From positions 124,001 to 188,000 of the forward strand of contig CALWPP010000001.1 in the NCBI GenBank assembly GCA_944383455.1: a stretch of DNA of 64,000 nt. Direction: 5' to 3'. Positions 23,512-25,555 of this stretch are shown here, piece after piece; within the stretch, counting starts at the first letter, position 1, and each line of letters opens with the position of its first letter. The DNA is from an uncultured Peptostreptococcaceae bacterium. Its GTDB lineage: Bacteria > Bacillota > Clostridia > Peptostreptococcales > Peptostreptococcaceae. A program made the translations under genes and the position numbers. A model generated the notes under the pieces. It did not search any database. It was given only the letters and a program-made list of their open reading frames with translations, and was not told the DNA's origin.

Positions 23512-24234
23512 TTACTCTGTAATCTCTAAATTATGATATATATTTTGAACATCATCATCATCTTCAAGCATATCAATCATTTTATTCATTGATTTTATTT
23601 GCTCTTCATCAGTTAAAACAGTTGTTGTTTGAGGTATCATTTTTATATCTGCAGATATAAAATTATAACCTTTTTCTTGAAGTACATCTCTTACATTAGA
23701 AAAATCTTCTGGTGTTGTTATTATTTCATATCCGTCTTCCTCTGTTATAAAATCTTCTGCTCCAGCTTCAAGTGATAAATCCATTAATTCTTCTTCATCA
23801 ATACTATCACTTGCTTCTATTAATATTTGACCTTTTTTATCAAACATAAAAGAAACACAACCACTAGTACCTAAATTTCCACCATTTTTATCAAAGTAAT
23901 ATCTAACATTTCCTGCTGTTCTATTTTTATTATCAGTTAAAGCTTCAACTATTACAGCAACTCCTGCTGGACCATAACCTTCATAAACTATTGTTTCATA
24001 GTTTTCATTAGCTCCTGCTCCTGCTCCTTTTAAAATAGCTCTATCTATATTGTCATTTGGCATATTGTCAGCCTTAGCTTTTTCTATTGCAGTTTTAAGT
24101 GCAGCATTGTACTCTGGGTCTTTTCCACCCTCTTTTGCTGCAACTGCTATTGCTCTTGAATGCTTAGTAAAAACTTTCGCTCTTTTAGCATCTTGTTTTC
24201 CTTTTTTATTTATTATATTTCCTATACGTCCCAT
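23512..24234 (-). CDS. yebC: YebC/PmpR family protein
   Basis: 240 residues, full-length for the family. The N-terminal basic part (about 1-75) includes MGRIGNI and [16 protein letters not shown], and the [20 protein letters not shown] segment marks the domain junction. Members act as transcription regulators in some bacteria. More recently, YebC-type proteins have been tied to relieving ribosome stalling on proline-rich stretches. Here no target can be inferred. Start ATG follows AAGGAGCGTGAATT; single-gene unit with a terminator. Confidence 0.94.
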
Positions 24235-24355
24235 AATTCACGCTCCTTATGTATAATTTTTACTATAAAATTCTAACATACCTAAATAATTTAGTAAATT
24301 ATAAGTTTATTCAAAAAGTAGTTTATTTTTATCAAAAATGTAGTATAATATTAAT

Positions 24356-24466
24356 ATAAAAAAGAAATTACAGTCTTTTTTGCATTAGAGTGTGGTTTCA
24401 ATAAAATAAATTAATAGTTGTTTTATTTTTTTGAATCACTCTTATCGCCCTTAAGAGTGATTTTTA
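24356..24466 (+). ncRNA. Candidate antisense antitoxin RNA of a type I toxin-antitoxin pair
   Basis: A TATAAT box at 24344-24349 (weak -35 around 24321) would start a rightward RNA near 24356. It would end at the intrinsic terminator 24434-24466, whose perfect 11-bp stem AATCACTCTTA/TAAGAGTGATT is followed by TTTTTAG. The RNA of about 110 bases would be complementary to the 3' part of the toxin reading frame (24423-24466) and its 3' untranslated region. Its 5' hairpin exposes AATTACAG in the loop, the same word as in the toxin mRNA's 5' end. Layout matches type I antitoxins described in C. difficile. No expression evidence is available here. Confidence 0.55.
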
Positions 24467-24545
24467 GTTTATCATAAATAAAAGCACCCAAAATACTTAT
24501 TATTAAAGCATCTGAGTTATTTATAATTAATCTAATTATTTCCAT
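24423..24545 (-). CDS. Candidate type I toxin: 40-residue hydrophobic peptide
   Basis: ATG at 24545, TAA at 24423. The peptide begins MEIIRLII, has a hydrophobic stretch ALIISILGAFIY (about residues 13-24), then a Lys-rich polar tail ending KGDKSDSKK. This composition is typical of membrane-acting type I toxins. The ribosome site AGGTGG sits in the 3' arm of a perfect 9-bp hairpin (ACCTACTTC/GAAGTAGGT, 24552-24578), so translation should be blocked in the full-length mRNA. A -10 TATAAT lies at 24625-24630 (leftward). It could instead be a small holin-like or regulatory peptide. Confidence 0.6.
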   Translation of the reverse strand: MEIIRLIINNSDALIISILGAFIYDKLKITLKGDKSDSKK

Positions 24546-24630
24546 ACTTCCACCTACTTCCTTTTTATAGAAGTAGGTTTTATTTTTATGGAAATCATCA
24601 CTCTCAAACTGTAATTTCTAATATATTATA
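24546..24630 (-). promoter_or_regulatory. Promoter and structured leader of the small hydrophobic peptide gene
   Basis: The -10 is TATAAT (24625-24630); the -35 is weak (TTAAAA with a 16-base spacer). The leader starts near 24620 and shows three pairings. The ribosome site is in a 9-bp hairpin (24552-24578). ATTTCCAT in the leader (24588-24595) is complementary to the start region (24538-24545). GAAATTACAGT (24608-24618) is complementary to the 3' end (24364-24374), an 11-base match. Such 5'-3' locking is known for type I toxin mRNAs. Confidence 0.5.
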
Positions 24631-24654
24631 TCATAAATTTATTAATTTTTAATA

Positions 24655-25401
24655 TTAAAATTTTGGAGGAGCTGATGGTGTATTTCTCTTATGCTCACTT
24701 ATTCTATGAAGTCTATCTATTATTTCCCTATCTTTTTGAGGAACATTTTCAAATTTACCTTCAACTATATCATCTATATAATTATAAGTTGTTCCCATTT
24801 CATTTTCATCAGTTTGTCCTTCCCAAAGACCAGCTGAAGGAGCTTTATTTATAATATCTTCGTGAACTCCAAGTATTTTTGCCCACTCATACACTTCTCT
24901 TTTTGTAAGGTTTGCAAGTGGTACTAAATCTACCCCTCCATCACCATACTTTGTGAAATATCCTGTATGAATTTCTGCTGCATTGTCAGTTCCAACTACT
25001 AAATATCCTAAATTATTTGCAATAGTATAAACAGTAGCCATTCTAGTTCTTGCTCTTAAGTTTGCATCAGTCATTCTTAAATTTTCTTCTTTGTATAAAT
25101 TTTTATCTTTTAAGTTATCAATTACTTTAGTAAGTATACCTTCTTGTTCATCAGTTAAATCCAAATCTAAATATTCAATTTTACAACCATCTATAACTTT
25201 TAAAGCATCTAATCTATCATTTGGATTACTTTTTATACTCATAATCACTCCCATAGAATTATCTGGAAATGCTTTTTTTATTAAGTAAGTAACAACAGCA
25301 GAATCAATTCCACCACTAACTCCAACTATAAGCCCGTTACAATTTGCTTCTTTAACTTTTTGTCTTAACCATTCAACAGTCTTTTCTATTTTAGCTCTCA
25401 T
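24655..25401 (-). CDS. nadE: NAD+ synthase, ammonia-dependent
   Basis: 248 residues, only the synthetase domain, so it uses ammonia rather than glutamine. The ATP-pyrophosphatase loop GVSGGIDSAVVTY (about 28-40), the GTDNAAE motif (about 134-140) and the KYGDGGVDLVPLANLTKREV segment (about 146-165) are conserved. It makes NAD+ from deamido-NAD+ and ATP in the cytosol. I start at ATG 25401 behind AAAGGAAATATT, dropping nine upstream codons that include the ribosome site. The downstream side abuts the small toxin-antitoxin locus. No other NAD genes are nearby. Confidence 0.95.
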   Translation of the reverse strand: MRAKIEKTVEWLRQKVKEANCNGLIVGVSGGIDSAVVTYLIKKAFPDNSMGVIMSIKSNPNDRLDALKVIDGCKIEYLDLDLTDEQEGILTKVIDNLKDKNLYKEENLRMTDANLRARTRMATVYTIANNLGYLVVGTDNAAEIHTGYFTKYGDGGVDLVPLANLTKREVYEWAKILGVHEDIINKAPSAGLWEGQTDENEMGTTYNYIDDIVEGKFENVPQKDREIIDRLHRISEHKRNTPSAPPKF

Positions 25402-25555
25402 AATATTTCCTTTCTTTTTCTTATACATTTTCCTTATTATACCACATTTTTAATTTTATTATAATAAAGTTATATATTTAAACTTTTCAAAATTTCAAAT
25501 ATTTTTTAAGATTTGAGTATATATATGTTAAAATAAATTATAAAGGGGGAGTTTA

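Follow-up and report, generated by a model that had tools for sequence, protein, structure and literature searches.

Between yebC and nadE, the window (the whole stretch of 64,000 nucleotides analysed, from an uncultured Peptostreptococcaceae bacterium) carries a compact module that is, with high probability, a type I toxin–antitoxin system on a divergent branch of the Clostridioides difficile-type (CD_typeI_toxin) superfamily. A first-pass annotation of this DNA had proposed such a pair with a hidden translation start and 5′–3′ pairing of the toxin mRNA, a reading that gains support from homology, from the conservation of two promoters and a terminator, and from compensatory changes. Judged from the comparison of relatives, the RNA architecture is real and common to the superfamily to which the proven C. 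difficile type I systems belong, since the mRNA ends coevolve with one another, as do the leader and the start region. We further propose that the 3′ UTR would act as part of a translational switch; taking identity and switch as a single statement, we consider it slightly better than evenly supported. The features of the module are collected in Table 1.

Table 1 Positions of the module, its parts and its flanking genes, numbered from the first letter of the window.
Feature	Position	Strand	Remark
yebC	23512–24234		flank of module
Whole module, ~350 bp	24305–24652	.	lies between yebC and nadE; contains both promoters
Antisense promoter −10, TATAAT	24344–24349	+	position kept just beyond A′ in relatives
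Antitoxin RNA, ~110 nt	24356–24468	+	predicted; complementary to the toxin mRNA over its 3′ half
3′ UTR hairpin B′–A′, then T6	24364–24399	-	terminator of the toxin gene; pairs with the leader
Toxin ORF, 40 aa (40 codons), hydrophobic, MEIIRLIINNSDALIISILGAFIYDKLKITLKGDKSDSKK	24423–24545	-	
Antisense terminator stem	24433–24463		
C:C′ inverted repeat within the ORF end	24434–24462	-	encodes the antisense terminator
Start region D′, ATGGAAAT	24538–24545	-	
Shine–Dalgarno region, AAGTAGGTG	24551–24559	-	T at 24556, G in relatives
Shine–Dalgarno hairpin, perfect 9 bp, 9-nt loop	24552–24578	-	arms 24552–24560 / 24570–24578
D, leader word ATTTCCAT	24588–24595	-	complementary to ATGGAAAT
Leader elements B and D, GAGAGTGATGATTTCCAT	24588–24605	-	D predicted to cover the start codon
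Element A, mRNA 5′ end, GAAATTACAGTTT	24606–24618	-	pairs with A′
Toxin promoter, extended −10 (TGATATAAT)	24625–24630	-	
nadE	24655–25428		flank of module

The leftward 40-codon ORF lies exactly where it had been annotated, and its peptide is hydrophobic, as described, over the N-terminal two thirds; Lys-tailed in that annotation, the peptide as a whole proved only weakly basic, with 7 K/R against 5 D/E. The peptide is small and probably membrane-acting. Against the R. maritimum homologue the ORF gives dN 0.12 and dS 0.59, and this short hydrophobic frame appears to be under selection, as a type I toxin gene should be. No significant match to the window peptide was found in Pfam, NCBIfam or PHROG, nor a close relative in the phage collection, and an Rfam search returned nothing. 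That the locus encodes no toxin, just a structured regulatory RNA in which an ORF arose by chance, is scarcely credible: conservation is largely structural and the peptide lacks a library match, as such a reading would have it, but the 40-codon frame is retained, dN is well below dS in most comparisons, and the peptide is homologous to proven type I toxins.

Homologues of the peptide occur in R. maritimum, R. timonensis, a chicken Romboutsia MAG and Paraclostridium bifermentans plasmids (and on a Paraclostridium chromosome), and genome G002 has three close copies and further, more distant paralogues; those of Terrisporobacter are degenerate or partial. A profile search of 71 genomes of the family found matches in 28 at E 0.01, with E values down to 5e-26, the weaker ones having a common core, YDK(L/I)K(N/S)H. 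Bridging members that were tested match NCBIfam NF047374 (CD_typeI_toxin) with E 1.7e-14 and 31–54 bits, where the curated cut-off is 60 bits; the window peptide has no match to this model and so falls below that cut-off. At E 0.01, NF047374 itself has matches in 39 of the 71 genomes, and these matches include two further modules in the organism's own genome (C5 and C27). Through the bridging members the homologues reach into Clostridioides and C. difficile phages. One bridging peptide, of 34 aa, is 97% identical in the C. difficile phage phiCDKH02; the proven toxin CD0956.3 has the same length (PMC7699646). Profile–profile alignment of the two branches with hhalign gave 96.2% (E 2e-9), and outside the family a single marginal match turned up among 297 sampled genomes of the order. 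The window peptide is thus, by transitive homology, a member of the superfamily and not of NF047374 as curated, and the suggestion that it might be a new member of the C. difficile-type systems was right. With this placement, a toxin family so far centred on a pathogen also takes in gut commensals, plasmids and phages.

Some copies have decayed. Those in Terrisporobacter mayombei (L030), an IMG/VR contig (L034) and genome G072 (L068, C121) have an internal stop or truncated tail, or have lost leader and promoter. The viral-contig copy L034 and the T. mayombei copy L030/L041 were left out of the comparisons as degenerate, lacking leader and promoter. A Pelagibacter match (L033) was rejected as a chance match within a large protein.

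Taking the −10 boxes and terminators as guides, we placed the start of the toxin mRNA at 24618 and its T tract at 24358, with the elements in the order A (5′ end), B and D (leader), Shine–Dalgarno hairpin, D′, ORF with C:C′, B′ and A′ (3′ end). The extended −10 stands 6–10 nt before A in nearly all loci parsed. This transcript (24358–24618) folds at −75.2 kcal/mol, against −36.8 ± 3.9 kcal/mol for dinucleotide shuffles (z = −9.9); for the R. maritimum mRNA z = −6.95. The annotated complementarity between the leader word and the start region is present (ATTTCCAT with ATGGAAAT). That between the mRNA ends is also present and is longer than the 11 bases first reported, with 13 bp (12 Watson–Crick and one G-U) joining 24606–24618 to about 24364–24376.

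Covariation across relatives, proposed in the first-pass annotation as a check, was found both for the mRNA ends and for the leader/start pairing (19–32 loci). Among 19 distinct pairs of A:A′ arms, 258 of 271 positions are Watson–Crick, 9 are G-U, 2 A-C and 2 other. Paired positions make up 98.5%, a share that drops to 86.7 ± 1.4% once the partners are permuted; an independent count over 23 sequences gave 98.4%, with compensatory double changes in 8 of 14 pairs. Over the whole structure these 23 sequences hold 15 double-changed pairs, compared with 8.3 in shuffled and 4–6 in slid controls, and not one of 500 shuffles scored as high; like the other permutation, control and Wilcoxon statistics given here, this comparison ignores phylogeny and shared ancestry. 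For the A:A′ duplex, with one locus per sequence group, the cognate energy was −18.3 kcal/mol and the permuted −10.6 kcal/mol; for D:D′, the corresponding values were −11.0 and −8.1 ± 0.4 kcal/mol (32 loci). The figure of 57% paired for helix C:C′ is largely an alignment effect, as the sequences are misaligned there between the two tail frames. On this comparative evidence, the leader/start and end pairings are genuine features of the family and not products of chance in an AT-rich window.

A convergent rightward promoter and terminator giving an antisense RNA of about 110 nt had been annotated, and the signals for both are indeed present in the sequence. The −10 was missed by a consensus scan and has no good −35; its position is conserved in relatives, where it was read by hand if the script had chosen a site inside A′. 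Terminators expected by chance number 0.1 in the whole stretch, and the antisense RNA folds with z = −6.1. The search that had been suggested, for a homologous peptide together with a conserved antisense promoter, recovered both across nearly all parsed loci, the exception being the P. bifermentans plasmid-type copies, in which the antisense −10 is lost or doubtful. Read from these signals, the module is predicted to encode an independently initiated and terminated antisense RNA that overlaps the toxin mRNA, as a type I antitoxin should. The C:C′ DNA is retained even though relatives (including L027) read it in two frames, KITLTGNKSD and KNHSNGNKSD, and so differ in their tails, a pattern suggestive of selection acting on the antisense terminator. 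The 5′ part of the antisense RNA resembles the toxin leader (mean identity 74% over 44 alignment columns), as would be required for both to pair with B′A′.

Two further observations concern the antisense promoter and the RNA starts. Three P. bifermentans copies, from plasmids and a draft genome (L064, L065, L040), keep toxin and leader, and their antisense −10 beyond the toxin terminator is gone or doubtful. Among Clostridioides genomes and a phage (L092, L093, L085), the toxin mRNA and the antitoxin RNA both appear to start with an AGCAAG(G/A)A-type sequence.

Thermodynamic folding was used to follow the start codon. Over 31 loci, the mean probability that the AUG is unpaired was 0.02 in transcripts cut at the stop codon, which lack the 3′ UTR. 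Attaching the cognate 3′ UTR raised it to 0.35, a foreign 3′ UTR gave 0.08 and a shuffled 3′ UTR 0.04 (Wilcoxon p 1e-9 to 3e-8). Forbidding D:D′ costs 2–9.5 kcal/mol in the cut transcripts and mostly 0–4 kcal/mol in the full-length ones, and B:B′ is stronger than D:D′ in all loci computed. When the antisense RNA was added, 12 of the 14 loci computed returned to a closed AUG, with a small change in G000C5 and the window copy closed throughout. Opening is not predicted for several loci (window, G032, LIBA, Pbif_2, Pbif_4). Since the Shine–Dalgarno is mostly paired in the full-length fold of many loci, the end pairing may free the AUG alone.

We propose the following switch. The leader would be the lock, with D covering the start codon until the 3′ UTR is made. 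The 3′ UTR would be the key: B′A′ would zip onto the leader from its extreme 5′ end, A:A′ first and then B:B′, stripping the leader from the start codon and permitting translation. The antitoxin, a near-copy of the leader on a separate RNA, would occupy B′A′ first and take the key away, whereupon the leader would fall back onto the start codon and the duplex would be degraded. This order of events, and its effect on translation, we hold to be evenly balanced between right and wrong. We give an even chance as well to the wider proposition that, throughout the Peptostreptococcaceae, C. difficile and phages included, a start-region mimic in the 3′ UTR of type I toxin mRNAs, helped by the coevolving end pairing, strips the leader from the start codon only once transcription is complete, the antitoxin being a trans-acting near-copy of the leader.

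Two other readings of the same folds were weighed. The first is that end pairing keeps the full-length mRNA untranslatable, that 3′ trimming activates it and that the antisense RNA removes the mRNA. Locks of this 5′–3′ type have been established in aapA and reported in hok (PMC6733600), and this reading would suit both the coevolution of the ends and the closed, locked fold predicted for the full-length window mRNA. It is nevertheless rather unlikely, as in most homologues removal of the 3′ end makes the start codon tighter, not looser, and the ends pair with one another here, the Shine–Dalgarno not being their partner. The hok-like locking that had been suggested at first is therefore not favoured; for most relatives the predicted effect of end pairing is to expose the start codon, which would make it a key, the reverse of hok and aapA. 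The second, which we think unlikely, is that the fold serves stability and antitoxin contact, the antitoxin acting only by RNase III-type degradation, like RatA on txpA, with start-codon exposure incidental. The 3′ ends are extensively complementary, as in txpA/RatA (PMC6562991), and a C. difficile toxin mRNA is stable (PMC6563280), but foreign or shuffled 3′ UTRs free the AUG much less than the cognate one does, and the leader/start pairing coevolves.

The proposed architecture, backed by covariation, offers a possible account of how translation at the 5′ end is silenced by an antitoxin whose target is the 3′ end. It could also explain the stability and tight folding of the mRNA, and the specificity of an antitoxin for its own toxin. 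PMC7699646 describes C. difficile toxin mRNAs as stable and ‘tightly folded’ in vitro, with only a fraction binding the antitoxin, and the C. difficile literature examined mentions long 5′ UTRs and tight folding. The examined passages on C. difficile systems contain no description of end pairing, which may already have been described in the founding paper, Maikova 2018 (NAR).

Compared with the C. difficile type I modules CD2517.1–RCd8, CD2907.1–RCd9, CD0956.2/.3 and CD0977.1–RCd11 (NCBIfam NF047374), the module has the same convergent arrangement of toxin and antisense genes, a hydrophobic peptide with a charged tail (34–53 aa), the YDKxKxH core in bridging members, and leader/start and end pairing of the kind found in the Clostridioides loci tested. 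The antitoxins are similar in size (~110 nt here, 125–150 nt in C. difficile). In these C. difficile relatives, growth inhibition by the peptide, and its prevention by the antisense RNA, have been shown (PMC7699646). The window copy differs in that its peptide has no direct NF047374 match, its KITL tail results from reading the same terminator DNA in a shifted frame, and its Shine–Dalgarno is broken.

The bsrG/SR4 pair of B. subtilis offers a second likeness: the antitoxin binds the 3′ end, changes the fold at the ribosome site and blocks translation (PMC6562991), and folding predicts a closed translation start with the antitoxin at the mRNA 3′ end in 12 of 14 loci here. Whereas bsrG/SR4 lengthens a 4-bp lock to 8 bp, the switch proposed here would have the 3′ UTR draw the leader away from the start codon; no sequence kinship between bsrG/SR4 and the window module was found. 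With aapA/IsoA (H. pylori) and hok/sok the module has in common the 5′–3′ pairing of the toxin mRNA ends, found here, and transient leader hairpins. End pairing is the lock in those systems and 3′ processing the activation; folding here predicts the reverse in most homologues, with the window copy locked. No Pfam or NCBIfam match above cut-off links the window peptide to the hok/sok or aapA/IsoA toxins.

The window copy itself departs from its family at the ribosome site. The perfect 9-bp hairpin annotated over this site is present as described, and a single window-specific substitution, T for G at 24556, both makes the hairpin perfect and breaks the Shine–Dalgarno. The anti-Shine–Dalgarno match is 8–11 nt in all 31 other non-redundant loci and 5 nt in the window copy, and the family hairpin is unpaired at the mismatch position in 20 of 23 sequences, where the window copy is paired. 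The claim of a toxin mRNA locked by a perfect hairpin thus holds for the window copy and fails as a conserved device, the lock being made by a substitution that also damages the Shine–Dalgarno. Moreover, B:B′ in the window reaches −15.5 kcal/mol, the weakest of all (family mean −23.7), as its B′ mismatches the leader, and the window mRNA is predicted closed in every state computed. Given the broken Shine–Dalgarno, the perfected hairpin, the mismatched B′ and the closed fold, the window copy is probably an attenuated allele. For aapA3, a Shine–Dalgarno change that stabilises its own hairpin suppresses toxicity (PMC6733600); the window change may act in the same way, and the perfect hairpin is probably a comparable mark of attenuation. 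The window copy would then resemble, in nature, the weakened alleles found by aapA3 suppressor selection.

The module is present or absent as one unit. The only congeneric genome compared (G001) has yebC adjoining nadE, at 84–85% identity, and lacks the segment from about 24305 to 24652, promoters included. A discrete ~350 bp segment that is present or absent, occurs in several copies per genome and has near-identical inverted ends could be a small MITE-like transposable element, with A and A′ as terminal inverted repeats whose likeness is maintained through transposition or gene conversion. We dropped this reading as very unlikely: no clear target-site duplication is visible at the module borders (yebC–nadE junction, window against G001), the repeats lie inside both promoters and coincide with the RNA ends, and their mismatches favour G-U over A-C by 9 to 2. 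The repeats also differ in step between paralogues, and ORF, promoters and antisense terminator are all conserved. Additional matches to the antisense promoter region (C2, C7 and G001 C112) have no surrounding module and look like AT-rich chance.

The organism's own 1.6-Mb genome holds two further complete modules of the superfamily, L115 (C5:67575–67721) and L066 (C27:6694–6780). Their RNA ends differ yet match internally, as GAAATTACAATCTA/TAGATTGTAATTTC and GAAGCTATAATCTA/TAGATTATAGCTTC.
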